Assembly (NCBI GenBank): GCA_015493745.1
Contig: WGCN01000005.1
Location: forward strand, 1 to 63,900
Source of the DNA: Calditrichales bacterium
GTDB lineage: Bacteria > Calditrichota > Calditrichia > Calditrichales > J004
DNA: 63,900 nucleotides
Direction of reading: 5' to 3'
Position numbers and translations under genes: made by a program. The notes beneath the pieces were generated by a model. The model was not told the origin of the DNA. It worked only from the letters and a program-made list of their open reading frames with translations, and did not search any database. This document shows positions 19,318-47,815 of this stretch, in pieces; the stretch's first letter is position 1; each line of letters opens with the position of its first letter.

Positions 19318-20637
19318 TTAATGGACCGCCCGGGTAAAGGCTTGTAAGCGACCCAGCATATCGCGATAATCCCGGTTATGCGGGGCCTGGGCACACAGTG
19401 CTTCAAAAACCTGTGTGGCTTCCGGAAAGCGCTGCTGCTTGATATAAATTTTCCCCAGCGTATCCAGCATGTAAAAATTGGTCGTGTCCTTTTGAAAAAG
19501 CGAACCGGCCAGCTTTTCCGCGTCCTGCCAGCGCTCGGCGGCCAGGGCGGCATCCAGGGTCTTGCGCCACAACTCGGGGGAGGTGTTGCCCCCGTTGATC
19601 ATTTCCGCCAGCAGCAAAAAGGCCTCGTCGTTCCTTCCGGCGCGGGCCAGCACCTCCGCCTCGGTATAGTTTAGCTTCTCTTCCTCAAAAACAACATCGG
19701 TGGCTATGTGCCATCCGGCGGAGCGGATCAAGCGGTTCTTCTCACGTACTTTTCGCAGCCAGTTCAGGGCGGCATCCCACTCTTTTCCGCCGCGGGCCAG
19801 TTGAAACAACATAAAATACCCCCCAACCTGATTCTCCTCCAGGTCAACGGACTCCATGGCCATGCGCCGGGCCTCCTCCGGCAGGCCGCATTTGGAATAG
19901 GTTTCGCTGAGCACATTGTAGAGTGAGGCTTTCATCTCCTTCTCAAACTGATCCAGGTTCAGGGCCTTAAGAAGATGTCTCAGGGCGTCCGTATGCCGCC
20001 CCACCAGATTATAATGCTGACCCAGGGTAAAATGGGCATAGGCGTTGTCGGGATTTTCATCCGCCATACGTTCCAGCAGCTTTTGATTGCGTGCTTTCTT
20101 GGCCGTGTCCGTTTCGGCGTCCAGGGCGTAACCCAAATGCTCCAGCGTTATGGCCGATTTACGTCTTTCCCCCCTGCCTCCGCTAAAGACAACCTGCTCA
20201 TGGATGCGTCCCGTAAAGCGGATCCCCTTATTATTGTTAAACAGGCGATAGGCCGTGGAGATATAAGCCCCGGCGTCATCCAGGGTATGATTGTTAATCT
20301 GTATCTGATAGATTACCGCCTGCTTTTCCCGGCGCAGGCTGTCACGTAGCAATTGTACCGATTCCGGTTTTAAACGTTCGTCGGCGTCCAGCCATAAAAT
20401 CCATTCGCCCCGCGCATAGCGGATGGAGGCGTTGCGGGCGGCGGAGAAATCGTCACACCACTCAAAATGATGTATCTCCGCGTTAAAGGCCCGGGCAATA
20501 TCCATGCTGCCATCGGTGGAGCCGGTGTCGACCACCACAATCTGGCCGGCCACATCCCGGATGCTCTCCAGACAGTCCTTTAAGAACCGTTCCTCGTTTT
20601 TTATGATCATGCAGACCGTAAGATCGGTTTTTTTCAT
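19318..20637 (-). CDS. Family 2 glycosyltransferase with TPR C-terminus
   Basis: LTVCMIIKNEERFLKDCLESI...VVVDTGSTDGSMDIA...LDADERL followed by TPR-like repeats. Confidence 0.88.
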   Translation of the reverse strand: MKKTDLTVCMIIKNEERFLKDCLESIRDVAGQIVVVDTGSTDGSMDIARAFNAEIHHFEWCDDFSAARNASIRYARGEWILWLDADERLKPESVQLLRDSLRREKQAVIYQIQINNHTLDDAGAYISTAYRLFNNNKGIRFTGRIHEQVVFSGGRGERRKSAITLEHLGYALDAETDTAKKARNQKLLERMADENPDNAYAHFTLGQHYNLVGRHTDALRHLLKALNLDQFEKEMKASLYNVLSETYSKCGLPEEARRMAMESVDLEENQVGGYFMLFQLARGGKEWDAALNWLRKVREKNRLIRSAGWHIATDVVFEEEKLNYTEAEVLARAGRNDEAFLLLAEMINGGNTSPELWRKTLDAALAAERWQDAEKLAGSLFQKDTTNFYMLDTLGKIYIKQQRFPEATQVFEALCAQAPHNRDYRDMLGRLQAFTRAVH

Positions 20638-20648
20638 AGTACCTCTTT

Positions 20649-22808
20649 TTAATGCAGGGAGCGCAGATCGCTGTGCTGTTCCAGGGCGTGGATAAGATTT
20701 TCCATATCGCTCAGATCGATACTGTGGCTTTCCCTGTTTTCCCTCAGCTTCAGAAAATAGGCCAGCGATTGCTCGATGCGGCCGCTGTACATACCGCCCA
20801 CGCCGGCCACATACATGGCCACATAATTGTAGGGGTTAAAGCGCAAACACCCCTCGGCATACTCCACCGCGGACTCATAGGCGCTGTTGGAAAGTTCGAT
20901 CTGGGCCAGGCGCAGGTAAATCATCTCCTTAATCTCATTGCCGATATTTCCGCCCGGGTTGCGCAGGGCCTTTTTCAGAAACTCCGCCGCGTGACTAAAA
21001 TCATTCAGCGCCTTATAGGTTTCACCCAGCTTAAACAACACATAGGCGTCGTCCGGGCGTTCCCGCAGCTCGGAACTGAGCATTTGCAGATTGCGCCGGG
21101 CGCGTTGTTCATTGTTCTTTTCATAGCCGTAATGATGGATAATGATATTGGCATCCACGATCTCCCCGCCCTGTTCCAAAATGGAGGGACCGATCTGTTC
21201 ATGCACTTTGTTTCGGTAACGAATGGAGGGTTTGTTCCTGAAAAAGCGAATTTGCCGTTCATCCAGATAGCGCACCATGTCCCCGGCTGGTTGATGGTTG
21301 CGTAAAACCACGGCCAGCCCCTCGGCGGACTGATCGAGCACCAGGCGCAGGGTTTCCCTGTCCAGCGATTCCAGTTCCTCATCGGCGTCCAGATGCAGTA
21401 TCCAGGGATGGCGGGCCTCTTTCAGCGCCAGATTGCGCATGGTGGCAAAGTCCCCTTTCCATTCAAAGCGCAACACTTTGGCGCCGTAATCCCGGGCAAT
21501 CTCCATGGTGCGGTCTTTGGAACCGGTATCGACAATGATGATTTCATCCACCAGTTCCCTTACGCTGTCCAGACAGCGGGGCAGGTTTTTCTCCTCATCA
21601 CGGGTGATCATACACAGGGAGATGGAAACTCCGGCCGGTGTGGATTCCTTTTCCGGTTCATAACGGCACCAGGAAACCAGCGCGGGATAGTTTTTCACAA
21701 TATGGTCGCGCAACGCTTCCTCATCGATCCGTGCCTTTTGAAACAGTTGCCGCCTGCGGGCCATTATCTTCAATATCTCTTCCACCGGAAGAACTTCCAC
21801 GGCCGTCCACAGCCACAGGGCGGCCACTTCCAGCTTATCCTCGTCGCTAAAGGAGATATGCGGGGCACTGATGCCCTGCTGAATATTGCGTTTGAGTATG
21901 TCATGGGCTGCGGCCGGATCGTTATCATCTATCAGTACCCGGCTCAGGGCCAGGGCCAGACGGCCGTCCTTCCAAAAACTTTTGGCGCCGATTTGCCGGG
22001 CACCGGATTTAAATATCTCCAGGCTCTCCGCCGTGCCATGCTCCCGGGCCCATTCACCGTACAAGGCCCATATGCCGATGACCGACTCACGCATCGGCGG
22101 GTTTTTATCCAGAATAAGACGCACGCTCTTGTTCAGCTCCAGACCATAGATATCCATCTCATCCAGGGCCTTATAAGTCAACAGCAGCTTATAGCGGTAG
22201 TGGAAGTTATCTTCCTCCCGGGCCACCGCCTTTTCCAAAATGGGCCGGTTGCGTTGCAACTTTAGCCGGGGATCGGTATAGCCGCTGTGTTCCAGAAAGA
22301 CGCCCGGCAGATTGGCCCAGGCCTTGCCACTGTGATTTTTTTCGGCGTAGGCCTGAATGCTGTCCATGGGATGCTCGTGGATGATGCCCCGGTAACGGAA
22401 GCCCGGCTTGTTGCGAAACAGAAGCATGCGGTGCAGGGAGGCGTATTTTTTTCCCGGCGCCACCGAACGTTCATCCACAAAATAGGCCAGGTAGGTGGTG
22501 TTTTTCAGAATCTCCCGCAGATCGATATGGGCGTCCACATGCAGAACATGGTCGGCATCCAGATTGAGCAGCCAGCGGCCGCTACATTTGGATATGGCAA
22601 AATTGCGGGCCGCGGAAAAATCATCGTTCCATTCATAGGTATAAACCCTGTCCGTAAAACGGCGGGCGATATCCTGCGTGCCGTCGGAAGAACCGGTATC
22701 GACAATGACCATCTCATCCACATGAGGACGGGCGGCTTCCAGGGTTTTCTCCAGCCGCAGGGCCTCGTTCTTAACAATCATGCAAAGAGAAATAAGCGGT
22801 TTTTCCAT
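20649..22808 (-). CDS. Double family 2 glycosyltransferase with TPR segments
   Basis: Two GT2 modules: ISLCMIVKNEALRLEKTLEAA...DTGSSDGTQDIA and ISLCMITRDEEKNLPRCLDSV...DTGSKDRTMEIA, then TPR. Confidence 0.87.
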   Translation of the reverse strand: MEKPLISLCMIVKNEALRLEKTLEAARPHVDEMVIVDTGSSDGTQDIARRFTDRVYTYEWNDDFSAARNFAISKCSGRWLLNLDADHVLHVDAHIDLREILKNTTYLAYFVDERSVAPGKKYASLHRMLLFRNKPGFRYRGIIHEHPMDSIQAYAEKNHSGKAWANLPGVFLEHSGYTDPRLKLQRNRPILEKAVAREEDNFHYRYKLLLTYKALDEMDIYGLELNKSVRLILDKNPPMRESVIGIWALYGEWAREHGTAESLEIFKSGARQIGAKSFWKDGRLALALSRVLIDDNDPAAAHDILKRNIQQGISAPHISFSDEDKLEVAALWLWTAVEVLPVEEILKIMARRRQLFQKARIDEEALRDHIVKNYPALVSWCRYEPEKESTPAGVSISLCMITRDEEKNLPRCLDSVRELVDEIIIVDTGSKDRTMEIARDYGAKVLRFEWKGDFATMRNLALKEARHPWILHLDADEELESLDRETLRLVLDQSAEGLAVVLRNHQPAGDMVRYLDERQIRFFRNKPSIRYRNKVHEQIGPSILEQGGEIVDANIIIHHYGYEKNNEQRARRNLQMLSSELRERPDDAYVLFKLGETYKALNDFSHAAEFLKKALRNPGGNIGNEIKEMIYLRLAQIELSNSAYESAVEYAEGCLRFNPYNYVAMYVAGVGGMYSGRIEQSLAYFLKLRENRESHSIDLSDMENLIHALEQHSDLRSLH

Positions 22809-22835: not shown

Positions 22836-25800
22836 TCAGGGTGTGGCTACGCCCTGGCGCTGTTGAATTTCCTCCAGCATCTCCCGGGCGGATGCGTTAT
22901 CGGCATCTATTTCCAGCACGCGGCGGAAGAAATTTTCAGCCTGCGTCCATCGTTCCACTTCGGCATAAAAGCCGCCGATGATAAGCAAACTCTCCACATC
23001 GTCCGGATGTTGGCTCAATATTTTATTAAATACGCTAATACCGTTTTCATAATCGCCCGATTCGATCAGTGCCAGGCCATAATTCCGCTGTGCTTCCACA
23101 AAGCCGTTATCCGCCTCAATGGCCCGGGCAAAATATTTTAAAGCCTGATCCGTCATTCCGTCCTGAAAGTTGAGAATACCCATCTGGTTAAGCGCGGGGG
23201 CAAAATCCGGCCATTGCTCAATCAACTTGTTCAGCAGCATCATGGCCCGCAACTGCTGCTCCTTGCGTATGGCACACAGCACCTCGCCAAACAGGGCCCG
23301 CGGCGAGGGATTGATACCGGCGCTTTGTTTAAACAGGGTCTCGGCCTCGCTTTCATCAAAATCATTCAGCAGATCGAAGGCCTGCTCTAAAAGCCGGTCG
23401 GCCTGCTCCTTCTCCGGGGTCGCCCCGCCGTCCATTTCATATAACAGCGTCCGGGCCTCCTCGTGTTCGGGCTCCACGGTTATGATCTGTTCCAGATAAA
23501 CGCGGGCTTCGTCCAGGCGCTCCACCTCCAGGTTTACCCGGGCCATGATCATCAACGCCACCACATCCCGCGGATGGGAACGCAGCCAGTCGCTGATCAC
23601 CCGCACGCCCCGCTCATAGTCGCCCAGAGATATCAGAGCCTGGCTCAAATTGTGATGCGCCTCGGAATAGGAGGGATCGATTTTTGCCGCCGCTTCAAAG
23701 CTGTCCACCGCGTGATTCCATTCCCCCTTTTGGGCGAATATCATTCCCAACTGATTGCGCACAACGGCGTTATCGGGAAAGTGCATGCGGGCGCGTAGAA
23801 GCACGCCGGTGGCCTCATCAAGTTTTCCGGCATGGAAATGGCAGAAACTTAGTCCCAGCAGGGCTTCTCCGGAAAGGGGATTCTCGGCCAGTACCTGTTC
23901 ATAAAGCTCAGCGGCCCGCTGCGCCTCTCCCCGCTCAAGCAGGCGCGAGGCCTGTTCAACTTTCGCGGGATGGACTTCATGCAGAGGATTTTTAATTTCC
24001 CGCAGTTCGTCATAGTCCACATCCGGCCACTTTTTGCAGAAGATCTTTTCATTTTCCTTTAACGAGGCCAGCAGATCGATATTATTGGCTTTAAAGGAAC
24101 TGTGGCCGAAGTGATGGATGAATGTGCCGTCATGTACCATCAGGGCATAACCCGCCCGGCGTATTTTCAGGCTGATATCATCATCCTCAAAGTTGCCCAG
24201 GCCGTAAATTTCGTCAAAGCCGTTTATGGCCTGGTAAATTTCCCGGTTGGTCAACATGACAAAACCCGCCAGACGCCGGCGCGGCGTAACCTGTCCCCTG
24301 TGCAAGGCCCGCCACTGTCCGGCAAAGTCATAAAAACCGTCATTGTCCGTATAGGGCACATCTTTCAGTACCTGCAGGCCGCTGGCCTTATTGGTCACCG
24401 CGCTGACCATGCCTATCTTTTCGTCGCGATCAAAGGCCTCTACCAGGTCTTCCAGCCAGCCGTCGGCCACCAGCACATCGTTATTCAGCAGGCAGATGTA
24501 GTGCCCTTGCGCGATCCGCTCCCCCTGGTTGTTGCCGGCGGAAAAGCCTTTATTTTCGCTGTTAAAGATAACCCGCACATTGGGCCTGCTTTGCTCCAGC
24601 TCCCGCAGATACTCCACCGTGCCGTCCGTGGAGGCGTTATCCACCAGAACCAGCTCATAGGGGTACGCAGTGTGCGCCTCGATGGAGGCGATGGTTTGCC
24701 GGGTCATGTCCAGCGCGTTAAAGGTCAGCATGATGATCGAAGCCAGCGGCCGGTCATCCACGGTGGATGCCGTCTCTTCTCCCGGCGGGGTATAAAGACG
24801 GATCGGGCCATTCAGTTGTACCGCGCGGCCGTCTTCTTCCAGGCGAAAATCGTGTTCCACCTTACCCAGCCAGCGCCGGTGCAGGCGGCGGATATTTTCG
24901 GCCACCTTTTTAAAGCGCTCCGGTCCGCTTTTGGATTCATGGTGGATCAGCTCGGCATGGGGCTGGTAAACCACCTTATACCCCTTCTCCCGGATGCGGA
25001 AGCACAGATCCACATCCTCGTAACCATTGTAATAGCCTTCGTCAAAGCCCTTCAGCTCCCGGGCCAACCCGGCGGGCATCAGCATGCAGGCCGCGGTTAC
25101 CGCCTGAAATTCAACCATGATGTTGGCCTGGGGAAAATCCTTGGGCCGCCCGGCAAGAATATGTTGCGCCAGAAGGGGATCGCCGTTTTTGCGGTCGTCC
25201 ACAATGGCCACGCCGCCATGCTGTATGGTACCGTCGGGGAACAACAGCTTGGCGCCCACCGCGCCCACGGTAGCATCATTCCGGGCGATGGCCAGCATGG
25301 CCTCCAGCCAGTGCCCGCCCGGTTCCGTATCGTTATTCAGAAACAGCACATACTCACCGCGCGCCTGCTCCAACGCCTGATTGTTGGCGCGGGAAAAACC
25401 GGCGTTACGCTTATTGTAAATTACCCGGAGCCGGGAGTCCCCGGCCGCCTGTTCCTTCAGGTAGTCCGCGCTGCCGTCATCGGAGCCGTTGTCCACCACG
25501 ATAGCTTCCCAAGAGACGCCCGCGGTGTTTTCCCTGATCGCCTTCAGGCATTTTTTCGTGTATTCCAGCTTATTGAAAACGGGTATCAAAATGGAAACCT
25601 CGGGAGGGGCGCTCTCTTCTTTCTCCGCCGTCAAAACGATCTCCACATCCCCGTCGGGAGCGGCGTTGGAGCCAAAGGAGACATTTTGCAATACGCTTCC
25701 TTCCGTCACTTCAACCTGCAAGGCTTCCTTCTTGCGCTCCCCGCGGTCTGCATCCGGCAAAGGTTTGCCCAGCAGGGTAAAGTAGGCTTCCGCCCAAACG

Positions 25801-28800
25801 CGCCAGTTTTTTTCCAGACTGTGCCGTTCAAAAATTTCCTTTTGGGCCGTCCGGGCCATCTCCCGCCGTTGCGGCGCGTTCTCCATCATCCACTTCAGGG
25901 CCCGGTACCAGGCGTTATTGGTATTCTTTACCAACAAGCCGTTGTGTCTGTCGCGGATCACATCCCGGTAGGCGGCCACATCGGAATAGAGGGCGCTGAT
26001 ACCACAGGCGCTGTATTCCAGCCATTTAATATGCGACTTGGCTTTGTTAAAGGGGGTTTCCTTTAAAGGCACCAGGGCAAAATCGATATCCAGGCCCTGT
26101 AGTTGCCGGGCGTAATCGATATAGTTGGGCGTAAACTGCGGCCCGCGCGTCACATTGGGCAGCTCCGTCAGCTCCGGAAGCTCATTGCCCCACAACACTA
26201 GTTCTACCGCATCGCCATATTCCTTTAAAATTTTATGCAGCCCTTTTAAGGCCACACGCAAATCATCATGATGGGTCGGCGTGCCGGCAAAAAGGATACG
26301 TACCTTGTCCCCGGAAGTCCGGGGGTCTTTTTGCGGCCAAAGCCGCTCATCCAGCACATTGGGAATTACCCGGACATTTTTATTGAAGTCGCGGCAGTAG
26401 CGTTCTATGTAGGGGGTGGATACGGTCACCATGTCCGCGTTGGCCAGATAGGCCTCCAGGCGCGGTTTCATGTTCTGATAAAAATCATAGGCCAGATGGC
26501 CGCGGGGGATGGCCCAAAAGGCGTCGTCGAACTCATAAACCAGCTTCACATCGTGCTGCCGCAATAAGGGCCGCAACTGTTCCAGGGGCAGATGTCCCGG
26601 CATATTGCGCTGGACGATCAGCACATCCGTATCGGCCAGCACCTCTTGCAGGGAGGTGATATTATCCATATTCACCTGACGGTAGACGATCAGCCCTTCT
26701 TCCTTCATCCTGCCGAGCGGCGTATGCAGACGGATGTAGGGACAGGCGCGGTTGCTTTGTTCCGTGCTCAAAACGGTTATGGCCGGCAGATCGCGCTCAT
26801 GGTCGGCCCGCTCCACCGGTTGCGGCGCCGGAGCCCCGCCCTTCCGCGATTGCTTATAATGTGCCCGCCAGAAGGCGCTGTCCTCTTCCAGGGTCACTAT
26901 TTCGCTGCGGGAACGGGCGGCTTTTTCTATCAACCCCGGTTGATCGACCAGCTTTTGCAACAGCCGTCGGAGTCCCTCCTCATCGGTGGGATCAAACAAC
27001 CAGCCGTTTTCTCCGTCGCGTATGGCGTCCAGAATGCCCCCTACCGCTCCGGCGGCCACCGGGGTGTTAAGCATCAGCGCCTCGCGCACCACCATGGAGT
27101 AGCTTTCCACCATGGAGGGCAACACAACCACATCCACGCCGCTTAATATCTCGGGAAGTTGTTGCGGGTTATAGGGTCCGGCGTAACGGGCCCGTGTTTC
27201 CAGGCGGCAATAGTCCTTAACCTCGGCCACCTCCTGCGAGGCCCCGTTGCCCCAGATTTGCAGACGGATATCGCCCTTTAATCGATGGAAGGCATTCAAC
27301 AACAATCCGGGATTCTTTAAGATATTCAGATTGCCCAGAAAAGCAAAGGTCAGCGTTTTCCCTTTCTTCTTTTTGGGCAGGGGCCGCATGGGCCTCAGCC
27401 CCAGCGGCTGGACGCGCATACGTTCCCCGGCCGCCCAGCCCAGGCGCTCAAAGGTTTCCTTAACAAAACGGGAAGGCGCGCTGATCATTTCCGCGCCGGC
27501 CAGCAGATTTTTGGCCCGCATGGCCCGTTCCGGCAGGGCCGCGCTTACCACCTGCGCCTGATTGCCCCGGGGCGCTCTGTTAAAGGCATGGAAAAAGCAG
27601 GCGCTGCATTTATCCGTTGCGGGACCGTCGCATATTTTTTTCTCCCCATAGTGAAAAAGATGGTTGCGCAGACACATAAAAGTAAAGTCATGCAGGGTTA
27701 CCGCATAGGGGATATTTAATTGCCGTAACAGGGCGCCCACGGCAAAAGGCACGCCCTGCGCGTGATGGATATGCGCGTAGCTGTAATGGTTGGCTTCCAG
27801 AAATTCCCGCAACATGTTGTACAGCGGTTGGCCGCCGGAATCCAGAAAATAGTTATAGAGTTTCGGATCGTACCACATCTGAATGGTTTTTATACCCTGA
27901 TGCTCCCGGAAGCGCAGCTCGGGCGCGGCCTGATGATTATCCGCGTGCGGGAAAAGCACATGGATGTTCTCTCCCTTTTCCTGCAGGGATTTTACCAGGG
28001 ATAAAACGTAATTTTCCGTTCCCCCGTACCAAAAGGGCGGAAAATTATGCACGATATAGAGGATGGCATTATCCCCGGGGCGGGCAAGGGTTTTCTCCCG
28101 GGGCAGGATATATTCTCCGCAAACTTCGGCGTAGGCCTCCTTATAGCGTTGTCTTACCTGCTGCGCCTCGATAATCGGCGTATCTCCCCGGCGGGAAACG
28201 GTTTCATCGCTTAAATAGTAAAGGCCGACAAACTCATTCAGATGGATAAAGTCATGCTTCAGGGCGGCGCGCAGCCAAAACTCCCAATCCGCCGCCGATT
28301 TCAACGTGGTATCAAAGTAGCCCAGGCTGTCGTGCAGGCTTTTGCGCCACAGCGGATGAGGGCCGATATAACACCAGGAGTGCATGGTGCGCCGGTCGAA
28401 ATCGGGCCATACCAGGTCCTGGCTGCCATCGGAGCTGTTATTTTCAAAGGTCTCATTGGCCACGGTGGTGACCAGGGAGTTGCCATAGGCCAGAACCTTA
28501 TCGGGGCTTTCCTCCAGCAAAGCGGCCAGCTTCTCCAGGGCGTCCGCGCGCAGGCGGTCGTCGGTATTGGCGTTGGAGATATATTTACCGCGGGCCATTT
28601 TTATACCCCGGTTCCAGGCCTGGTAAACCGTCTCCCGCGTTTCCGTGCGTACATAGCGGATATGATCATATTTCCCGAGGAACGACTGCACAATAGCCGC
28701 CTCATTTTGGGGACTGTTGGCGTCGACAACGATGATTTCCAGCCGCCCCTGCTTATAGAGGCTTTGCTCCACCAGTCCCTGCAGGCAGCCGGCGATAAAT

Positions 28801-30746
28801 TTTTCGGAATTATAGGTAGAAACGATGGCCGAGACCAGATAATCCTCCCGCGAGGCCGCCGGTACGGCGCGCTGTTGCGCGGCGACGGAAGCGGGCTCCA
28901 GCCCCAGTGCGCCCAACATGGCCCGGGCTTCACCGCCGGAAACTTCGGCGGGCTGAGCGCTCAGGCTATCCACCTGACGACGCAGATGGTCGTAATCGTA
29001 ACCGAGAGCGCCGAGAATGCCGGACCCCAGGGCATCCAGATAGGCCCCGGCCAACAGCTTGTACAGGGGTTGATTCAATGTCTCACGCCATTTCTCCACA
29101 CTTTCGGCCGAGGGGGCTTTGTGCCGGACCACACCCAGCGGGTCGCCCATGCTGCCCCGGGGCGCCGGGCGACGGCCATAGTTGAGCATATCCGGTTCAT
29201 AGCTCACCCCCAAAGCGGTGCATAACTGTTTCAGGCTCCCGTCTCCGTCGGCCACCAGTTGCTCATAGCGCACGGGGATATAGCGATCCGGGTATTCCCG
29301 CATATAGGCGGCCAGCTTAAAGGGCGCGGTCATCAGGTCGTGACGGTGAAGGGAGAGGCGGTTCCAGTCCCCGTTCACCCATGTTTTTAAAATGGAAGCC
29401 AGCACGGCCAGCGGGTTGCGCAACAGGATTACGCGCCGGGCGCCGGGCAAGAGCTCGGTCAGTTCCGGTAAAACATGGTAGTAACGCGGGGTTTTATCCA
29501 AAAAGATATCCCTGCCGCTGTCCGCCAAAGCCCGGCCGTACCATACGCCGGCCATGGCCCGCAGGCCGTCCAGATAATCTTCACGTCCGCGGGGCAGGTT
29601 ATCCGTAAAATCCTTTAGGCCGATACGGGCGTCCACCGCGCTGTATTCCGTTTCAAGACCCTTCTCCTTAAGCGCGTAAAGGGGATGGAGCATAATCCAG
29701 GGTTCGGCCAGGGTATGCACCCGGGGATGTCCGGCCAGTATGCGCTGCAGCAATGTGGAGCCCGCCCGGGGCTGCGAAATGAGAAATATCAGGTTTTCAC
29801 CACGATAGTTTCCTATATCCGGGGAAAAATCAACCATGCCGTTACCCTTACTTTTACCAGATAAATATTTCTTTAATTCTCCGGCGGTTTCCGACTTTAC
29901 TGTTATATCTTTTAATGAAAGTGCTATGGGGGTCGTTTTTGAAAGACGGCTTAATGATATAAGAAGCTCATTGAGTTCATTAATAACATACCGTTGTGTA
30001 TCGATATCAAAATCGACCAACAGATGCAGATTTTTCTTTATTACAGACAATGCCGACTTATAGAGTTTGCTGTTCATCTGATGATGAATACCCTGGGGAT
30101 GATCCCTGTAAAAAACAGCATCCCGGCCGGAATAAACCACCGGATATTGCGATGTTACCCGTATTTTCAAATCCCAGTCCGGATGTACCGGAATGTTGGG
30201 ATCATGTCCAAAGGCGTTGTACACATCACGGTGTATCAATTCATTTCGGAAAACGGAGCGTCGCCCCTTGAAAAAGCGTTTGGCAAACACAGGAACAAAA
30301 ACATCTCCTTCCGGCGCCCTGTCTCCCGGATTCAACCAGCGTTCCTTTTCCCTGCCCTCGTCATCCACCAGTATGACATTGGAGTAGGCTACCCGGGCGT
30401 CAGGATTTTTTTGCAGGGCGGCCCACTCTTTTTCCAGTTTATCGGGAAACCAAAAATCATCGCCGTCCACAACGCTCATCCAGGTACCGTTTATCATGTC
30501 GCTGGCGGCCTTAAAATTGATTTGTGGCCCTGCATTTTCCTTTTGACGTACCGTTTTAATCAAACCGGGGTATTTCCGGCGATAACTTTCGATGATCTCC
30601 CAGGAGGCGTCCGTGGAGGCATCGTCGCAAATGACGATCTCCGTCGGCCGCAGGCTTTGGTTGATAATACTTTGGATACATTGATCCAGATATTTTTCAA
30701 AATTATAGGAGACGATAATTACGCTGATGTCTGCTTCTTGCTGCAT
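22836..30746 (-). CDS. 2636-aa multidomain enzyme: GT2-sulfotransferase-GT2-GT4-GT(4-like)-GT2-GT2-TPR
   Basis: Single uninterrupted ORF. GT2 at aa ~1 (ISVIIVSYNFEKYLDQCIQSI), sulfotransferase at ~304 (NLIFLISQPRAGSTLLQRIL), GT2 at ~634 (SAIVSTYNSEKFIAGCLQGL), GT4 at ~896 (ILYIVHNFPPFWYGGTENYVLSL...PSMVESYSMVVREALML), second GT4-like at ~1319, GT2 at ~1716 (VSILIPVFNKLEYTKKCLKAI), GT2 at ~2000 (ASIIMLTFNALDMTRQTI), TPR from ~2256. Confidence 0.9.
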   Translation of the reverse strand: MQQEADISVIIVSYNFEKYLDQCIQSIINQSLRPTEIVICDDASTDASWEIIESYRRKYPGLIKTVRQKENAGPQINFKAASDMINGTWMSVVDGDDFWFPDKLEKEWAALQKNPDARVAYSNVILVDDEGREKERWLNPGDRAPEGDVFVPVFAKRFFKGRRSVFRNELIHRDVYNAFGHDPNIPVHPDWDLKIRVTSQYPVVYSGRDAVFYRDHPQGIHHQMNSKLYKSALSVIKKNLHLLVDFDIDTQRYVINELNELLISLSRLSKTTPIALSLKDITVKSETAGELKKYLSGKSKGNGMVDFSPDIGNYRGENLIFLISQPRAGSTLLQRILAGHPRVHTLAEPWIMLHPLYALKEKGLETEYSAVDARIGLKDFTDNLPRGREDYLDGLRAMAGVWYGRALADSGRDIFLDKTPRYYHVLPELTELLPGARRVILLRNPLAVLASILKTWVNGDWNRLSLHRHDLMTAPFKLAAYMREYPDRYIPVRYEQLVADGDGSLKQLCTALGVSYEPDMLNYGRRPAPRGSMGDPLGVVRHKAPSAESVEKWRETLNQPLYKLLAGAYLDALGSGILGALGYDYDHLRRQVDSLSAQPAEVSGGEARAMLGALGLEPASVAAQQRAVPAASREDYLVSAIVSTYNSEKFIAGCLQGLVEQSLYKQGRLEIIVVDANSPQNEAAIVQSFLGKYDHIRYVRTETRETVYQAWNRGIKMARGKYISNANTDDRLRADALEKLAALLEESPDKVLAYGNSLVTTVANETFENNSSDGSQDLVWPDFDRRTMHSWCYIGPHPLWRKSLHDSLGYFDTTLKSAADWEFWLRAALKHDFIHLNEFVGLYYLSDETVSRRGDTPIIEAQQVRQRYKEAYAEVCGEYILPREKTLARPGDNAILYIVHNFPPFWYGGTENYVLSLVKSLQEKGENIHVLFPHADNHQAAPELRFREHQGIKTIQMWYDPKLYNYFLDSGGQPLYNMLREFLEANHYSYAHIHHAQGVPFAVGALLRQLNIPYAVTLHDFTFMCLRNHLFHYGEKKICDGPATDKCSACFFHAFNRAPRGNQAQVVSAALPERAMRAKNLLAGAEMISAPSRFVKETFERLGWAAGERMRVQPLGLRPMRPLPKKKKGKTLTFAFLGNLNILKNPGLLLNAFHRLKGDIRLQIWGNGASQEVAEVKDYCRLETRARYAGPYNPQQLPEILSGVDVVVLPSMVESYSMVVREALMLNTPVAAGAVGGILDAIRDGENGWLFDPTDEEGLRRLLQKLVDQPGLIEKAARSRSEIVTLEEDSAFWRAHYKQSRKGGAPAPQPVERADHERDLPAITVLSTEQSNRACPYIRLHTPLGRMKEEGLIVYRQVNMDNITSLQEVLADTDVLIVQRNMPGHLPLEQLRPLLRQHDVKLVYEFDDAFWAIPRGHLAYDFYQNMKPRLEAYLANADMVTVSTPYIERYCRDFNKNVRVIPNVLDERLWPQKDPRTSGDKVRILFAGTPTHHDDLRVALKGLHKILKEYGDAVELVLWGNELPELTELPNVTRGPQFTPNYIDYARQLQGLDIDFALVPLKETPFNKAKSHIKWLEYSACGISALYSDVAAYRDVIRDRHNGLLVKNTNNAWYRALKWMMENAPQRREMARTAQKEIFERHSLEKNWRVWAEAYFTLLGKPLPDADRGERKKEALQVEVTEGSVLQNVSFGSNAAPDGDVEIVLTAEKEESAPPEVSILIPVFNKLEYTKKCLKAIRENTAGVSWEAIVVDNGSDDGSADYLKEQAAGDSRLRVIYNKRNAGFSRANNQALEQARGEYVLFLNNDTEPGGHWLEAMLAIARNDATVGAVGAKLLFPDGTIQHGGVAIVDDRKNGDPLLAQHILAGRPKDFPQANIMVEFQAVTAACMLMPAGLARELKGFDEGYYNGYEDVDLCFRIREKGYKVVYQPHAELIHHESKSGPERFKKVAENIRRLHRRWLGKVEHDFRLEEDGRAVQLNGPIRLYTPPGEETASTVDDRPLASIIMLTFNALDMTRQTIASIEAHTAYPYELVLVDNASTDGTVEYLRELEQSRPNVRVIFNSENKGFSAGNNQGERIAQGHYICLLNNDVLVADGWLEDLVEAFDRDEKIGMVSAVTNKASGLQVLKDVPYTDNDGFYDFAGQWRALHRGQVTPRRRLAGFVMLTNREIYQAINGFDEIYGLGNFEDDDISLKIRRAGYALMVHDGTFIHHFGHSSFKANNIDLLASLKENEKIFCKKWPDVDYDELREIKNPLHEVHPAKVEQASRLLERGEAQRAAELYEQVLAENPLSGEALLGLSFCHFHAGKLDEATGVLLRARMHFPDNAVVRNQLGMIFAQKGEWNHAVDSFEAAAKIDPSYSEAHHNLSQALISLGDYERGVRVISDWLRSHPRDVVALMIMARVNLEVERLDEARVYLEQIITVEPEHEEARTLLYEMDGGATPEKEQADRLLEQAFDLLNDFDESEAETLFKQSAGINPSPRALFGEVLCAIRKEQQLRAMMLLNKLIEQWPDFAPALNQMGILNFQDGMTDQALKYFARAIEADNGFVEAQRNYGLALIESGDYENGISVFNKILSQHPDDVESLLIIGGFYAEVERWTQAENFFRRVLEIDADNASAREMLEEIQQRQGVATP

Positions 30747-30759
30747 ATACCGGCCTTTC

Positions 30760-31431
30760 TTATAAACGGGTCATTTTTAAAAAGGTACTGCTGTCCAGCC
30801 GGAACTTTGGGGTATCGGCCTCAATAAAGACACTGCCAGCCCCGGCGTTTTTTGTTACACGCGCTCCGGCGCCTATCAGGCAGCGTTCGCCTATGCGCAC
30901 CTCATGACCGACAACGGCATTAACGCCTATAAAGCTATAGGCCCCGATAATGCTGTGGCCGGCAATGGAAACATGCCCCGCGATGTAACAATGGTCTTTT
31001 ATCTCTGAATGGTGGCCTAGAATATTATTGCTCCACAGGGTAACATTGTTACCAATTTTACTACAGGGCTGTATGGAGCTGTTTTCCAGAATAAAGCAAT
31101 TGTCTCCTATGTCAACATTCCCCATATTTACGGCGCGGGAACTGATATAACTGACCAGTTCATAGCCCATGGCTTTGGCCTGGTCGTATTTTTCCGCGCG
31201 CAAGCGGTTTAAATTTTGATATCCAACGGCTATAAACATCTTGTATTCGCCGGGAGGATAAATTTCCTTCACGGAGCCGAATGGTACCACGGGCAATCCG
31301 AACAGGCTTTCCCTGGTTTTATAGGCTGCGTCAACGGTAAAGGCGACAATGGTATGGTCACTGTCATTACTGAAATAGTAGTAGGCTTCATCGGCAATTT
31401 TTCCAATGCCGAATATGACAACTTTACTCAC
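30760..31431 (-). CDS. Left-handed beta-helix sugar O/N-acyltransferase (NeuD/PglD-like)
   Basis: VVIFGIGKIADEAYYYF N-terminal domain plus hexapeptide repeats (VDIGDNCFILENSSIQPCSKIGNNVTLWSNNILGHHSEIKDHCYIAGHVSIAGH). Confidence 0.87.
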   Translation of the reverse strand: MSKVVIFGIGKIADEAYYYFSNDSDHTIVAFTVDAAYKTRESLFGLPVVPFGSVKEIYPPGEYKMFIAVGYQNLNRLRAEKYDQAKAMGYELVSYISSRAVNMGNVDIGDNCFILENSSIQPCSKIGNNVTLWSNNILGHHSEIKDHCYIAGHVSIAGHSIIGAYSFIGVNAVVGHEVRIGERCLIGAGARVTKNAGAGSVFIEADTPKFRLDSSTFLKMTRL

Positions 31432-32981
31432 GAGGCATTCCTTTTTTCACTAAGGTAAATTTCGGATACTTTTTTACGGTTCACCTTGCCGTTGGCATTA
31501 ACAGGCATTTGACGCACCGTATGGAATTCATTGGGAATCATGTAATCGGGCAGAAGTTTTTTCAGCCCGTCCCTTAACGCCGTCTCCGTGATATCTTCTC
31601 CACCGCAAACAACCGCCACCAAACGGCTTAATCCACGGGCGGCGCCATGAATCACCAGCGCCTGGCTTACATGATCCAACCGGCACAAAGCGGTCTCGAT
31701 TTCTTCCAGTTCAATGCGGTAGCCCATATGTTTAACCTGATTATCACGGCGTCCGAGGATATAAAGTTTTCCATCCTCCTTATCCAAACGCACCAGGTCT
31801 CCGGTTTTATACATGATTTCGGGGAAGTTCATGTTTAATGGATTATAGATAAAATGGCGCTCCGTATTGTCCGGATCGTTATAATAACCGTGGCCCACGC
31901 ATGGCCCGGTCAGGCAGAGCTCGCCGCTCTCTCCCGCGGCTGCTTCCCTTCCCTGATCATCAAGAATGGCCCAGCCGAAGTTCGGGATAATGCTTCCCAG
32001 CGGAGGAAATCCGTTCAACTCTTCAAAATCGGCGGCGCTGATCCGGTATTGTGAGCAAATGCAGGTACACTCCGTGGGACCATAAACATTGTAGAGATCG
32101 ATACGTCCTTCGAAAAGTTCGAATAGTTTTTTCAGCCGTGCCTTGGGATATCCTTCCCCACCGAAAATCATCCGCTTTAACGCCGGAAAGCTGTCGCGGT
32201 TGAGCACCTTCATAGTTTGCAAAAAAATCAACATGGTCGGTACGGAAAACCACTGTGTGCAGCCCATGCGTTCCACCACCCCTACCAGGCGCGCGGCGTT
32301 GGTAAGCCACTCTCTGTCCAAAGGTACCAGAGAGGCGCCGTTGAACAAGGCTCCATAAAGATCAAACACAGAATTATCAAAATAGAGGGGATTGACATTG
32401 GTTACGATATCCGTATGCTGAATATTAAAAGCCTCTCCGGCCCAATCGATAAAATTGAGCAGATTGCCATGAGAGATCACCGCTCCCTTGGGTGTACCCG
32501 TTGATCCCGAAGTAAACATAATATAGGCCGGGGTGTTGGCCGGAAAATCTTGCGCCCTTGTCCATTCTTTGCCTTCCGGCATATCGTTCAGTTGCAGACT
32601 AACCAGATGCGTGTCCTTTTCGAGACGTTGCGCCAGCACGGCACAGGTTTCCCTGTTGGCAAAAATCATTTTCGGCTGACAGACGTTAAATATCCTATAG
32701 AGACGTTCCATTGGGCTTTGAGGATCAAAAACGGTATAGGCAACGCCGCTTTTAAGGCAGGCAAAAATAACAGAAAAGGTAAAGAAGCTTTTCTTACCGG
32801 AAACGGCAACGACCCTTCCCCGCTCCAAACCATGCCTTTCCATAAAAGCGGCCACCCGGTTTGAGGCGACGTCAAGGTCTTCATAATACCATTGCTCGCC
32901 GTCAGGAAAACGCAAGGCGGGTTTAGTACCATATTTCTCCGATACCTGTCGGAATCGCTGTGCTAAATTAAAAACATACAT
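31428..32981 (-). CDS. Amino-acid/acyl adenylating enzyme (NRPS A-domain-like AMP-dependent ligase)
   Basis: YIMFTSGSTGTPKGAVISHGN, YFDNSVFDLYGALFNGA, NVYGPTECT, YKTGDLVRLD, GRRDNQVKHMGYRIELEEIE, NANGKVNRK. Confidence 0.9.
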   Translation of the reverse strand: MYVFNLAQRFRQVSEKYGTKPALRFPDGEQWYYEDLDVASNRVAAFMERHGLERGRVVAVSGKKSFFTFSVIFACLKSGVAYTVFDPQSPMERLYRIFNVCQPKMIFANRETCAVLAQRLEKDTHLVSLQLNDMPEGKEWTRAQDFPANTPAYIMFTSGSTGTPKGAVISHGNLLNFIDWAGEAFNIQHTDIVTNVNPLYFDNSVFDLYGALFNGASLVPLDREWLTNAARLVGVVERMGCTQWFSVPTMLIFLQTMKVLNRDSFPALKRMIFGGEGYPKARLKKLFELFEGRIDLYNVYGPTECTCICSQYRISAADFEELNGFPPLGSIIPNFGWAILDDQGREAAAGESGELCLTGPCVGHGYYNDPDNTERHFIYNPLNMNFPEIMYKTGDLVRLDKEDGKLYILGRRDNQVKHMGYRIELEEIETALCRLDHVSQALVIHGAARGLSRLVAVVCGGEDITETALRDGLKKLLPDYMIPNEFHTVRQMPVNANGKVNRKKVSEIYLSEKRNAS

Positions 32982-32993
32982 TTTCGCGTTACC

Positions 32994-33743
32994 TTAAATC
33001 ACCATACCGCCATCCAGGGCCAGCACCTTACCGTTAAAAAAATCATTCTCTATTACCGCCATCACCCCATTGGCAATTTCTTCCGCCCGGCCCAGCCGGC
33101 GCAGGGGGACTTCGGACTTAATCTGGCGCAACATATCTTCACTCAATACCTTATGCGTTGAGGGTGTATCCGAGTATCCCGGAGCAATCCCCACTACCCG
33201 TATACCCATTACCCCCAGTTCCTTGGCCCAGGTGGCGGTAAGGGCATTGACTCCCGCCTTGGCCGCCGAATAGGCCGACTGCCCGCGATTGCCCGCCGCG
33301 CTTATGGAGCTGATATTGACAATAAGGCCACGCGTTCTTTTTTGCAGCATCTTGGCGGCCACGCTGGAGGTCATGTAAAAAGTACCGCTCAGGTTAACAT
33401 CGATTACCTTTTGCCAGGAAGCGGCGTCATGCTTTTCCACCCCGCCGGGACCGAAACGCACCAACGGCTTATTAAATAATATCCCGGCGTTGTTGATCAG
33501 AATATCGATATGACCCTGTTTTTCAAACCAGCGTTCGACACATTCATCCACCTGGGTGGGATCACTGATATCACACAAATAGGTTACGCATCCGGGCAGT
33601 TCCGCGGCCAGTTGTTCAAGACCGGAAGGATTTATATCCGCAACCGCCAGACAGGCTCCTCTTTCCATAAGCTTTTGAGCTATTTCCCTACCGATGCCCG
33701 CCACCCCGCCGGTAAGCAGAACGCTTTTTTTTTCAAGGTTCAT
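32994..33743 (-). CDS. Short-chain dehydrogenase/reductase (FabG-like)
   Basis: TGGVAGIGREIA, NNAGI, SSISAAGNRGQSAYSAAKAGV (YxxxK). Confidence 0.9.
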   Translation of the reverse strand: MNLEKKSVLLTGGVAGIGREIAQKLMERGACLAVADINPSGLEQLAAELPGCVTYLCDISDPTQVDECVERWFEKQGHIDILINNAGILFNKPLVRFGPGGVEKHDAASWQKVIDVNLSGTFYMTSSVAAKMLQKRTRGLIVNISSISAAGNRGQSAYSAAKAGVNALTATWAKELGVMGIRVVGIAPGYSDTPSTHKVLSEDMLRQIKSEVPLRRLGRAEEIANGVMAVIENDFFNGKVLALDGGMVI

Positions 33744-33977
33744 TTAGTTTTTTATTCCCTTCCGTTCCAGAACTTCGCGTATAGCCTTCACACTCATCAT
33801 ATTTATAATATCCTCGGGACTTAGCTCCAGATCGAACTCATCCTCCAGGGTAACGATAAGCTCCATATGTTTTAGTGAATCCCAAACATCGCTTTCCGCC
33901 ATGGTCAGTTCATCATTAACCTGACTGCTGTCCATGCGCAGCAAGTCGGCCATCAGTGTATTCAATTTATCGTTCAT
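33744..33977 (-). CDS. Acyl/peptidyl carrier protein
   Basis: 77 aa acidic; WDSLKHMELIVTLEDEFDLELSPEDIINMMSVKAI, with DSL phosphopantetheine attachment Ser. Confidence 0.9.
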   Translation of the reverse strand: MNDKLNTLMADLLRMDSSQVNDELTMAESDVWDSLKHMELIVTLEDEFDLELSPEDIINMMSVKAIREVLERKGIKN

Positions 33978-34179
33978 CGTGATATCTCCGTCATCAATAT
34001 GATATAATTACCCCGGCAAAACAGGCAACCCGGTATTTGCTAAAGCAGATTAATCAAATATTATGCCAGAGGCCTTAATGAATGATAAACAATTAAAAAA
34101 CAGATACTTATAGTCAAATAGAGAAAAAAAAAGTGCCAATGAAGGGAAATATTTTACCCGCGGGGCGGAATATATTGCC

Positions 34180-34197
34180 CCCGGCCCAACGGCCGGG
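34180..34197. other. Perfect 7-bp GC-rich hairpin in an intergenic region of the glycan island
   Basis: CCCGGCC-CAAC-GGCCGGG; a second, partly overlapping hairpin GGGGC-N10-GCCCC lies at 34162-34181. Confidence 0.6.
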
Positions 34198-34217
34198 AAT
34201 GAATTATTTTTCCCGCC

Positions 34218-34940
34218 TTACCTGGAAATATTTAGATGAGGCATTTGCATGTTAAGTTTTTCAGGCAAATTTAAAAATTTAAGAATTTTCGAAATATCCT
34301 TCTCCCTTGTCAGGTCAATCACCAATAAACTATCCGGTCTGTTTTGAAAATATTTAATAATTTCCTTGTTACGTTCACTATAAATGCCTATCCTGTGATC
34401 CCTGTCATAGGCCCGGTTCCAGTCATATTCCAGTTCATAACCATTGACGTCCGCAATAACCATATATTTTAGCACATCATAAAAGTAATTTTCATACAGG
34501 TAGATATTTTTATTTTTGAATGACGATTCATCAAGCTGATCCAAACTTGTAATCCCCTGTCTCTTTAGAACGCCGTTTAAATGAAAACGGACCAGGCTGT
34601 CAAACCACTCTTGTGGGTCTCTTACCGTGAGGATAAATTTACTTCCGGGAAAAAGGCAATCCGCCTGGGCATAGGCAACCCCCTGGGAAAACGGCATGTC
34701 CTGAAAAGCGTCATATTGCTCACAGAACTCTCTGAGTGGTTGAAAATTTCCCAAATAAAGTTGCTTTACAATGCGCATTTCCTGCTCCCTTTGATCGGGT
34801 AGCCTGTAACCGAGAGCCCGGAGTACCAGTTCCAGTGTTGTGGTACCTGTTTTATTATAACCGATACAAAATATTTTATTAAAATCTTTTCGGGGCATGG
34901 TTTCGAGAAGAGCCATATTTCTGTATTCTTCAATATTCAT
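34218..34940 (-). CDS. Sulfotransferase family protein
   Basis: IFCIGYNKTGTTTLELVLRALGYRLP (5'-phosphosulfate-binding-loop-like); FILTVRDPQEWFDSLV. Confidence 0.83.
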   Translation of the reverse strand: MNIEEYRNMALLETMPRKDFNKIFCIGYNKTGTTTLELVLRALGYRLPDQREQEMRIVKQLYLGNFQPLREFCEQYDAFQDMPFSQGVAYAQADCLFPGSKFILTVRDPQEWFDSLVRFHLNGVLKRQGITSLDQLDESSFKNKNIYLYENYFYDVLKYMVIADVNGYELEYDWNRAYDRDHRIGIYSERNKEIIKYFQNRPDSLLVIDLTREKDISKILKFLNLPEKLNMQMPHLNISR

Positions 34941-35009
34941 ATTTTGTTCTCCGGGGACTACTTATCTATCTTCAAATAATTACTTTTCATTAACCTTTCG
35001 GTTTTCATC

Positions 35010-35723
35010 CTATGGTTTTATGATATAGGCCATGGGCATCCATCCCCAAGGAAAGGTTTTGATCCGGGCTTCGGGAAGCAATTCCTTAACGGCACGCGCT
35101 TCCCCGGGTGAAAGCTCGTGATTGAACTGATCGAGGATAAGCATCCCGCCGCTGGTAATTCTAGGCCAGAACTCGTTTATTGCGGAGTAAACCACATCAT
35201 GCATACCGGCGTCGAGGAAAACCAATTTAAACTGCATATAAGCGTTCTCCTCAAAAAAACCTTTCAGTTCATTGACCACATCCAGTTTGTGTATGTGCGC
35301 AATGTTATCGAGCCCCTGTGCTTTTACCAGTTTTTTTACGCGTCCGTAATCTTCCTTATATGAGCCTTCCAGAACATTTTTCTCTTCTTCCGTTACATGA
35401 TTGCCCTCAAACCAATCAAAGCCATGCACCAAGGTAAGAGCATTCGGTTCGAAGATTTGCAACAGCTTGGCAAAAAAAAGAGTGCAGGCCGCTTTATACA
35501 CACCCACCTCGGCAATATGACCGGCCACATCACGTACCATTTTATAGGCCTCATAGAGCACCAAAAATCGTGACAGGGTCATGTGTCCGGTAAAAGCAGG
35601 AAAATGATGGATAAAATCCTCCGGCGAATAATCCAGATCGAAAATGGTTTGCAAGCCTTCATAATAGGGCTTTTTCATGGCAGAAAACTTCTTTGTTTCA
35701 AATTGTCCTTCAAGATAGTCCAT
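35010..35723 (-). CDS. TylF/MacO-like SAM-dependent O-methyltransferase
   Basis: HIAEVGVYKAACTLFFAKLL; FKLVFLDAGMHDVVYSAINEFWPRITSGGMLILDQF. Confidence 0.72.
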   Translation of the reverse strand: MDYLEGQFETKKFSAMKKPYYEGLQTIFDLDYSPEDFIHHFPAFTGHMTLSRFLVLYEAYKMVRDVAGHIAEVGVYKAACTLFFAKLLQIFEPNALTLVHGFDWFEGNHVTEEEKNVLEGSYKEDYGRVKKLVKAQGLDNIAHIHKLDVVNELKGFFEENAYMQFKLVFLDAGMHDVVYSAINEFWPRITSGGMLILDQFNHELSPGEARAVKELLPEARIKTFPWGWMPMAYIIKP

Positions 35724-35725
35724 AT

Positions 35726-36691
35726 TTATTCTCCTGTAAGTTCGGCATAACCGAATCCTTCTTTTCCAAAATAGTTTCCGTTATAAAAAAGATAAATTTT
35801 GCCATCCACTTCCAACACATAGGGATAGGCCATCATTTCCGAATCCCAACCGGAATCACTTAGCTCCAAACCTTCGGATTCATGCTCCAATATCCATGTC
35901 CGCAAATTATCCGAAACGGCATGGGCCAGCCGATACCCCACTCCCCGGCCTTTTCTAAAGTCCAGCGCCGGGCGATAACAATACCACATGTGATATCGTC
36001 CCCCGTATCTTATCACCGTTGGCCGGTTTTGGGCCTCGTTTTCTAAACGGGTAGGGATACAAAACTCCCTTTCCCGTTCCCAGTGCACGCCGTCATTGGA
36101 AAGGGCGTGTTTTATCTGATAGACAATCTCATATCGCTCACCGGACCATAACCATTCCCGTCCGGATGCGTACCATAAATGATGACGGCCATTATCATAC
36201 ATATAAAAAGGCCCGTTTATTAGAAAGGGATCACTGTTCTCCAAGCCCAAAAAAGGGCCATCGTTATAACGCTGAAACGTTTTACCGCCATCATTACTAA
36301 AAGCTTTTCCTATGCGTGTGCAAAAAGGCACGGATTCCATCCGAGTCCACCCCGTATACCAGAGTTCGACTTTTTGTCCCTGTTGATCATATTGTACAAA
36401 TCCGGGCATTACACCGAATTCATCAAAGGTACCCGCATTACCGCAATCAAAAGAAGGCTGAGCGGCAATATCAATAATTTGTGACGGATCATGGGCCTGA
36501 ACGTCTATATATGCGGTGCGGCTGATAAAGCGCCCATCGTCATGCGCCCGGGGGCGGGTGGTAAAATAGATGCGTAATACATCCCGGCTGATGCGCATCG
36601 GCGTGGGAACCTGCGCATAGTGCCTCATAAAGGGATAGCGGTCACGGGGATCAAAAATGCGGCCTCTTTTACTCCACTTCATCTTCCACAC
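35726..36691 (-). CDS. Five-bladed beta-propeller protein, glycoside hydrolase (GH43/32-like)
   Basis: Repeated blade motifs such as ELWYTGW, HHLWYASGREW, YHMWYCYRP, YPYVLEVDGKIYLFYNGN. Confidence 0.68.
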   Translation of the reverse strand: MWKMKWSKRGRIFDPRDRYPFMRHYAQVPTPMRISRDVLRIYFTTRPRAHDDGRFISRTAYIDVQAHDPSQIIDIAAQPSFDCGNAGTFDEFGVMPGFVQYDQQGQKVELWYTGWTRMESVPFCTRIGKAFSNDGGKTFQRYNDGPFLGLENSDPFLINGPFYMYDNGRHHLWYASGREWLWSGERYEIVYQIKHALSNDGVHWEREREFCIPTRLENEAQNRPTVIRYGGRYHMWYCYRPALDFRKGRGVGYRLAHAVSDNLRTWILEHESEGLELSDSGWDSEMMAYPYVLEVDGKIYLFYNGNYFGKEGFGYAELTGE

Positions 36692-37577: not shown

Positions 37578-37580
37578 CTC

Positions 37581-38774: not shown

Positions 38775-39013
38775 CTGTGCGTTCCATATAATGTTTATCC
38801 TTCGGGCCTTTACCCTAAACGGACGATATGAAAACTTATCTATCAATATCCGTGCCATGGAAAACGACACATGCTAAACTACTGAAAATATATAACTTAT
38901 AAATATACCATTCCCATGCGGGGGCGTGTCCGCGCCTTAACGGATGGAAAGATTTTCTGAATGGCGGGAATAAATTGCCCTTTACAAAGGCCGCGGGGAG
39001 GAAAGCCCGGTTG

Positions 39014-41865: not shown

Positions 41866-41888
41866 CGTTTATACCTCTACTTCCCTGT

Positions 41889-43247: not shown

Positions 43248-43252
43248 AGTGT

Positions 43253-43672
43253 TTATCCTTCACTTAAAGCGGCCCGGGCGCGTCTGACCCGCGGGTACAT
43301 AGTGGATTGACGCCAGGCGGTATCATCGGTGGCCGACAGGTTATAGCTTTCCATAGCTTTTGTATACGTTATGCGCAGCCTTTCACGGAAGCGGTTCCAA
43401 ATCTGCTGCTCTTTTCGCGGCAACAGGGCGATAAGTTCCGGCAGAGTGGCCTCGGTGTGCCCCGGAATAAGCACGGCGTAAAGTAAAGCGGTGGCCGCCT
43501 TTCTCTTGCGGGTTAATTCCGCCGCTTTTCTTAATATCCTTTCCGTCACCATTTTCCCTTCTCCGTGATTTACCGGCCGGGTCATTATCTTATAAACCCA
43601 TCCGTAGGCGGATATTTCCTGCACTATCAAATCCAAAAGATGATCATAGGCCTCGCGCTTGAATTTTTCCAT
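43253..43672 (-). CDS. Uncharacterised protein in the flagellar operon between flgN and flgK
   Basis: Start MEKFKREAYDHLLDLIVQEISAYG inferred from ATGA-type overlap with the flgN stop (43674); ORF track extends to 43741. Helical; no family recognised. Confidence 0.7.
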   Translation of the reverse strand: MEKFKREAYDHLLDLIVQEISAYGWVYKIMTRPVNHGEGKMVTERILRKAAELTRKRKAATALLYAVLIPGHTEATLPELIALLPRKEQQIWNRFRERLRITYTKAMESYNLSATDDTAWRQSTMYPRVRRARAALSEG

Positions 43673-43673
43673 A

Positions 43674-44553: not shown

Positions 44554-44563
44554 GAGCATTCCT

Positions 44564-45703: not shown

Positions 45704-45715
45704 TTTACGGTTCCG

Positions 45716-46312: not shown

Positions 46313-46320
46313 AACGACTC

Positions 46321-47010: not shown

Positions 47011-47015
47011 CCCAC

Positions 47016-47801: not shown

Positions 47802-47815
47802 CTTCTTAACTCCTT

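Follow-up and report, generated by a model that had tools for sequence, protein, structure and literature searches.

A giant glycosyltransferase-sulfotransferase-TPR protein encoded in a flagellar operon of a Calditrichales bacterium: a candidate assembly line for flagellin glycosylation and sulfation

Flagellin glycosylation islands are known from several bacteria. In Pseudomonas, the flagellin glycosyltransferase (GT) genes lie within the flagellar cluster, with fgt1 and fgt2 upstream of fliC in a flgL-fliD cluster; these islands vary between strains and encode large GTs (Fgt1/Fgt2 and VioT, the latter of 1173 aa) (PMC3927599). In P. syringae, the flagellin glycan is capped at its non-reducing end by a modified viosamine, an N-acylated and methylated 4-amino-dideoxysugar made by vioA, vioM, vioS, vioB, vioR and acp (PMC3927599). 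The enterobacterial islands are located at fliC and hold one to three GT genes, some of them fused to methyltransferases, within highly variable cassettes of GT2s, aminotransferases, formyltransferases, acyl carrier proteins and CoA ligases (PMC4875605; the word stem “sulfo” is absent from this paper). FlmG of Caulobacter is a cytoplasmic flagellin O-glycosyltransferase of 596 aa, which joins an N-terminal TPR domain to one GT-B domain; the TPR domain binds flagellins, is required for their glycosylation and sets the substrate specificity (PMC7591256). In OGT and SPINDLY, a TPR superhelix likewise docks protein substrates, there beside a GT-B (GT41) catalytic domain that adds a single sugar. 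Sulfation of a motility filament has been described in the archaeon Halobacterium salinarum, in which a sulfated N-linked oligosaccharide, present on archaellins among other proteins, depends on separate, dedicated sulfotransferases (PMC11980604, PMC6591318).

Herein we analysed a 63,900-nucleotide stretch (“the window”) from the 221-contig, 3.7-Mb draft genome of a bacterium of the Calditrichales, which belong to the poorly known Calditrichota. The open-access literature yielded nothing relevant on flagellin glycosylation in Calditrichota, and only archaeal examples that connect flagellins with sulfotransferases, absences that constitute weak evidence.

Architecture of the giant protein

The gene at 22836-30746 is a single minus-strand ORF of 2636 codons without a stop, encoding a giant GT/sulfotransferase/TPR protein; the plus-strand reading of the same interval contains 30 stops, and the chance of 2636 stop-free codons at the GC content of the window is ~1e-53. 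The uninterrupted ORF seen in the preliminary description is thus real, and its inventory of four GT2 modules, two GT4-like modules, a PAPS-type sulfotransferase and a TPR array agrees with Pfam run module by module, where all modules scored above the curated cut-offs. The order from N- to C-terminus is GT2 / Sulfotransfer_3 / GT2 / GT4 / GT4-like / GT2 / GT2 / TPR:

29973..30746, minus strand: module 1, GT2a (aa 1-258; GT2 6.5e-29; DGDD at 94-97, DWD at 190-192)
28977..29801, minus strand: module 2, Sulfotransfer_3 (aa 316-590; 1.6e-28)
28092..28850, minus strand: module 3, GT2b (aa 633-885; GT2 6.3e-25)
26862..28070, minus strand: module 4, GT4a (aa 893-1295; Glycos_transf_1 3.1e-25; EX7E glutamates E1214/E1222)
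25767..26789, minus strand: module 5, GT4-like, GT4b (aa 1320-1660; 5.9e-10; single-glutamate KWLEYS motif)
24861..25613, minus strand: module 6, GT2c (aa 1712-1962; GT2 4.7e-28)
24003..24755, minus strand: module 7, GT2d (aa 1998-2248; GT2 7.3e-31)
22839..23981, minus strand: C-terminal TPR superhelix (aa 2256-2636; TPR_19 6.2e-41)

A draft in 221 contigs raises the concern that so long an ORF arose as an artefact of assembly or sequencing, a reading to which we assign a negligible probability. In G003, a genome of the same genus, the gene has 97-98% DNA identity to that of the window and lies on two contigs that overlap at aa 991-1043 and together cover every module junction, while G004 (on a 1.29-Mb contig) and G016 carry independent, unbroken single-frame orthologues of 2868 and 2882 aa with an equal module order. 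Assembly fusion, which the preliminary description had asked to be checked along with the occurrence of the same domain order elsewhere, is excluded by these contigs and orthologues. The dN/dS of the giant gene against G003 is 0.23, and is low in each module where it could be measured, indicating purifying selection. A scan with GT2d retrieved relatives among Calditrichota MAGs, including one with 98% identity to the query (L073) and one, from a record labelled Caldithrix abyssi isolate HyVt-577 (L077), that carries the full architecture. The orthologue of G005 (L061, 4865-12583) is in two frames, with the break inside GT4a.

Sequence motifs are kept in the orthologues for GT2a (DGDD/HxDWD), the sulfotransferase module (SQPRAGSTLLQR with RNPLAVL), GT2b (NTDDR/AADWEFWLR), GT4a (ESYSxVxRE, that is EX7E), GT4b (NRAKSHIKWLEY), GT2c (NNDTE/GYEDVD) and GT2d (NNDVL/EDDD/HHFG). 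The check on DxD and PAPS motifs therefore came out in favour of the modules with the exception of GT4b, in which one of the two EX7E glutamates is missing.

Flagellar context and the TPR tail

The giant gene stands at the end of an operon-like run on one strand, in which the flagellar genes are followed by sugar genes, the giant GT-TPR gene and GT2-TPR genes, with gaps that are mostly <150 bases:

40984..48529, minus strand: flagellar operon flgF-G-A-H-I-J-N-K-L, running on into the glycosylation genes
20649..22808, minus strand: GT2-GT2-TPR protein of 719 aa, directly downstream of the giant gene (SunS-like 9.4e-38, below cut-off)
19318..20637, minus strand: GT2-TPR protein of 439 aa, last gene of the exchanged block

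Between flgN and flgK, a 162-aa protein (43253-43741) has no Pfam match. The glycosylation genes lie directly downstream of flgL, in keeping with Pseudomonas-type islands, where they are found beside flgL or fliC. The 1.29-Mb contig of G004 has a collinear arrangement of flagellar genes, sugar genes, the giant gene and two GT2-TPR genes, and in the single-contig genome G006, probably of Caldithrix abyssi, a giant GT-TPR gene of 1852 aa comes directly after flgL. In all, flgKL are followed by a giant GT-TPR gene in G004, G006, G007, G010, G015, G024 and G027, as well as, in the scan by GT2d alignment, in Neomarinimicrobiota (L086, L088, L098, L099, L101, L109 and L111) and, also beyond Calditrichota, in one Brocadia (L114) and one Nitrospirae MAG (L150). 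GT2d is the module common to giant GT-TPR proteins across phyla; viral contigs scanned with it held 18 relatives with 30-40% identity. The architecture, which had been called unusual, is less singular than assumed, since several phyla commonly have giant GT-TPR proteins beside flgKL, and two sulfotransferase modules occur in some orthologues.

Across 40 genomes of the class, a match to the giant GT was present in 26 of the 27 that have flagellin (G032 being the exception) and in none of the 13 that lack it (Fisher p 1e-9, with the relatedness of the genomes uncorrected), a pattern that may in part reflect shared ancestry and that a Pseudomonas-type island would be expected to show. The flagellin gene itself (fliC, 273 aa) is on another contig (C23), outside the island, in a locus with fliD-like genes and no GT beside fliC. 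No Maf-type protein (PF01973) was matched in the genome, and Maf-type flagellin glycosylation was rejected as an explanation. The position of the giant gene in a flagellar operon, which the preliminary description had not recognised, makes flagellin the most likely acceptor. At only 273 aa (L171, 8344-9165), this flagellin probably forms a filament without outer D2/D3 domains, whose surface the glycan could form.

In a structural model of GT2d with the TPR tail (pLDDT 93.8), the GT-A domain leads into a long TPR superhelix, for which OGT and SPINDLY, with their TPR domains, give the best PDB fold matches. By analogy with these proteins and with FlmG, the TPR tail probably acts as a dock for the acceptor, as had been suggested beforehand, and we infer that it docks flagellin; alternatively, its ligand may be FlgK, FlgL or some other protein.

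The sugar cassette and its exchange

The interval that separates flgL from the giant gene encodes the following proteins, with assignments to a viosamine-type role made at the family level:

40027..40980, minus strand: FemAB/GNAT-like acyltransferase
39014..40027, minus strand: separate Sulfotransfer_3 protein
37581..38870, minus strand: DegT/DnrJ aminotransferase (DesI/VioA/PseC-like), in whose gene one edge of the swapped cassette lies
36669..37577, minus strand: sugar N-formyltransferase-like protein
35726..36691, minus strand: conserved protein without Pfam or NCBIfam match, with two versions that track the cassette type
35010..35723, minus strand: TylF-type methyltransferase (presumed VioM-like role)
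34218..34940, minus strand: separate Sulfotransfer_4 protein
33744..33977, minus strand: acyl carrier protein, 77 aa (PF00550, 29.3 bits, cut-off 20.8)
32994..33743, minus strand: FabG-like short-chain reductase (VioR-like)
31428..32981, minus strand: AMP-forming adenylation enzyme (amino-acid adenylation domain, DltA-like; TIGR01733, 343.4, cut-off 317.4)
30760..31431, minus strand: NeuD/PglB/VioB-family sugar acyltransferase (VioB-like; TIGR03570, 160.9, cut-off 160.8)

Counterparts of vioA (DegT), vioM (TylF-type), vioB (TIGR03570), vioR (FabG-like) and acp (PF00550) are thus present as family-level matches; vioS, the 3-oxoacyl-ACP synthase III, is absent from the cassette and an AMP-forming ligase takes its place. 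A dTDP-glucose dehydratase is encoded elsewhere in the genome. By analogy with the Pseudomonas pathway, the product would be an N-acylated 4-amino-4,6-dideoxyhexose similar to viosamine.

Comparison with related genomes revealed a recent between-species exchange of the glycosylation block (19350-30179). The DNA identity of the window to G003 and G002 is 67-77% beyond the island and 82-87% across the flagellar genes, while the identity to G003 is 97-98% from ~19350 to 30179, a stretch that covers the GT2-TPR genes and the giant gene, and the glycosylation block is 92% identical to G002 up to a contig end. The identity to G003 breaks off sharply within the giant gene, at codon 189 (30179), and picks up again at 37636, where 18 codons of the aminotransferase gene are left; between these positions, the two genomes have different genes:

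30180..37635, no strand: swapped cassette, without homology to G003 (L176, 2564-6577) between two sharp edges

The cassette was therefore swapped as one block with the first 189 codons of GT2a. Cassette A, found in the window, G001 and G004, includes the adenylation enzyme, VioB-type acyltransferase and reductase, and cassette B, found in G003, G005 and G020, has an epimerase, the second version of the family-less protein and a sulfotransferase-like protein. Across these six genomes, the donor half of GT2a matches the cassette type, with identities over aa 5-188 of 54-69% within the first group and 62-64% within the second as against 45-52% between groups, whereas in its C-terminal part the GT2a of the window shares 90% identity with that of G003. 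GT-A enzymes bind the nucleotide sugar with their N-terminal half and the acceptor with their C-terminal half. The simplest reading of these sequence patterns is that GT2a transfers the sugar made by the cassette, and that a lineage switched its sugar by exchanging the cassette genes together with the donor half.

Sulfotransferase module, proposed function and comparison with known systems

The Sulfotransfer_3 module scores 100.9 bits against a cut-off of 27 and has both PAPS-binding loops, which are kept in the orthologues and align to TPST2 and to PKS sulfotransferases:

29736..29783, minus strand: PAPS 5'-phosphosulfate loop LISQPRAGSTLLQRIL (aa 322-337)
29388..29432, minus strand: PAPS 3'-phosphate loop VILLRNPLAVLASIL (aa 439-453)

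R327, E348, K418 and R443/S451 align to positions of tyrosylprotein sulfotransferase 2 that we take to be catalytic or PAPS-binding. The AF2 model of the module (pLDDT 79) matches the folds of 4gox, 4gbm and 3ap1, and by both fold and sequence its nearest solved relatives are PKS-embedded sulfotransferases, followed by tyrosylprotein sulfotransferases. This module occurs within a giant GT frame in 7 of 40 genomes in the phylum. The orthologues of G001, G004 and G016 have an extra, different sulfotransferase (Sulfotransfer_1; 1.5e-13 in G016) between GT2a and the Sulfotransfer_3 module (L077, 1342-2316; L045/L046 in G004; L174); it is absent from those of G003, G005 and the window. Apart from the giant gene, the island holds two more sulfotransferase genes, and an APS kinase encoded in the genome would serve the supply of PAPS. 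Elsewhere, contig C29 (17827-81890, L008-L012) holds a large NRPS/PKS cluster with a stand-alone sulfotransferase (52135-53082) between NRPS genes; a frame of 2968-2978 aa with a sulfotransferase match on C29 was considered as a paralogue and rejected, being unrelated and part of the NRPS cluster. The end of the same contig (98830-99294, L012) encodes MCIRDR and looks like a sequencing-adapter remnant.

We consider it likely that the giant protein works in the cytoplasm as an assembly line, holding flagellin by its TPR tail and adding sugars and sulfate to it, which is in line with the earlier suggestion of assembly-line synthesis of a defined, modified oligosaccharide. The acceptor, the order of action, the sugar identities and the sulfation target in the following scheme are those that we infer. 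The TPR superhelix would dock flagellin ahead of export, and GT2d, which adjoins it and is the most conserved module, probably puts the first sugar on serine or threonine. Chain extension would fall to GT2c, both GT4-type modules and GT2b, the embedded PAPS-dependent sulfotransferase would sulfate a sugar near the outer end of the chain, and the N-terminal GT2a would cap it with the viosamine-like cassette sugar. The viosamine-type sugar is terminal in Pseudomonas, which suggests that GT2a is the last enzyme and GT2d the first. This terminal sugar would be exchangeable, with lineages swapping the cassette and, along with it, the half of GT2a that binds the donor. More tentatively, and with somewhat less than even confidence, the protein may be a single-chain line, collinear from C- to N-terminus, that makes a sulfated O-glycan on a bacterial flagellin and whose outermost sugar is changed by exchange of cassette and donor half, while the acceptor half and the other modules are kept.

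The main alternative concerning the acceptor is that the product is a cell-surface polysaccharide (capsule, EPS or O-antigen), the flagellar neighbours of the gene being a coincidence. Polysaccharide loci often encode multi-GT proteins that combine GT2 and GT4 modules, and single modules of the giant protein match EPS-family models, all below cut-off; however, no exporter, flippase or polymerase is encoded in the interval from flgL to the GT2-TPR genes, and the giant protein has no membrane segment (Kyte-Doolittle, 19-aa segments, maximum mean 1.53), and thus no transmembrane channel of the kind found in membrane synthases of chitin, hyaluronan or cellulose. The adjacency to flgKL in several phyla and the tracking of flagellin also argue against chance, and we regard such a polysaccharide enzyme as improbable. 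The framing of the protein in the preliminary description by reference to chitin, hyaluronan and capsule polymerases accordingly found no support.

Other alternatives leave flagellin as the glycosylated acceptor or concern the share of modules at work. The kinship to PKS-embedded and tyrosylprotein sulfotransferases makes an acceptor other than sugar possible for the sulfotransferase module, and sulfation of a protein tyrosine would suit a module that belongs to a protein presumed to bind a protein and that has tyrosylprotein sulfotransferases as its second-best relatives. Its best relatives, however, are PKS sulfotransferases that act on small acyl chains, and it is flanked by two GT modules, one of them the presumed terminal-sugar module, so that we give tyrosine sulfation a small probability. 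It is appreciably less improbable, although still unlikely, that only part of the modules are active and the others serve as scaffolds. GT4b, with its incomplete EX7E motif, would be an example, whereas the remaining motifs are intact and kept across genera, and selection has held dN/dS low in every module measurable.

If the assembly-line reading is correct, the glycan would be the first sulfated one on a bacterial flagellum as far as we know, and the protein would be a rare case of a whole glycan programme in one chain, with the module order readable as sugar order. This reading would also link a large number of giant GT-TPR genes, unannotated and spread over several phyla, to flagellin modification. 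The half-module swap is, in addition, a ready natural experiment on which half of a GT-A enzyme picks the donor.

Compared with the systems described above, the locus has most in common with the Pseudomonas islands, with which it shares GT genes within a flagellar cluster, large GTs, the kinds of genes needed for an N-acylated, methylated 4-amino-dideoxysugar cap, and variation between relatives. It differs from them in that six GTs, a sulfotransferase and a TPR tail form one protein, an AMP ligase stands in for vioS, and the flagellin gene is located elsewhere; we know of no sulfotransferase in the Pseudomonas flagellin islands, nor of any earlier sulfated glycan on a bacterial flagellum. The enterobacterial islands resemble it in their variable cassettes and in having some fused GTs. 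As in FlmG, a TPR domain is joined to a GT, but here it is C-terminal and neighbours a GT-A (GT2) module rather than a single GT-B domain, with six more catalytic modules in the chain; OGT and SPINDLY share the TPR superhelix beside a GT and differ in the same GT-B respect. The PKS-embedded sulfotransferases (CurM, olefin synthase; 4gbm, 4gox) also reside inside a megaenzyme, although theirs are polyketide-type lines in which acyl chains rather than sugars are sulfated. The Halobacterium system offers the likeness of a motility filament with a sulfated oligosaccharide, in an archaeon, with N-linkage and separate enzymes. While flagellin glycosylation islands as such are known, what is distinct here is the fusion of GTs, sulfotransferase and presumed dock, and the swap of a cassette together with half a GT module.
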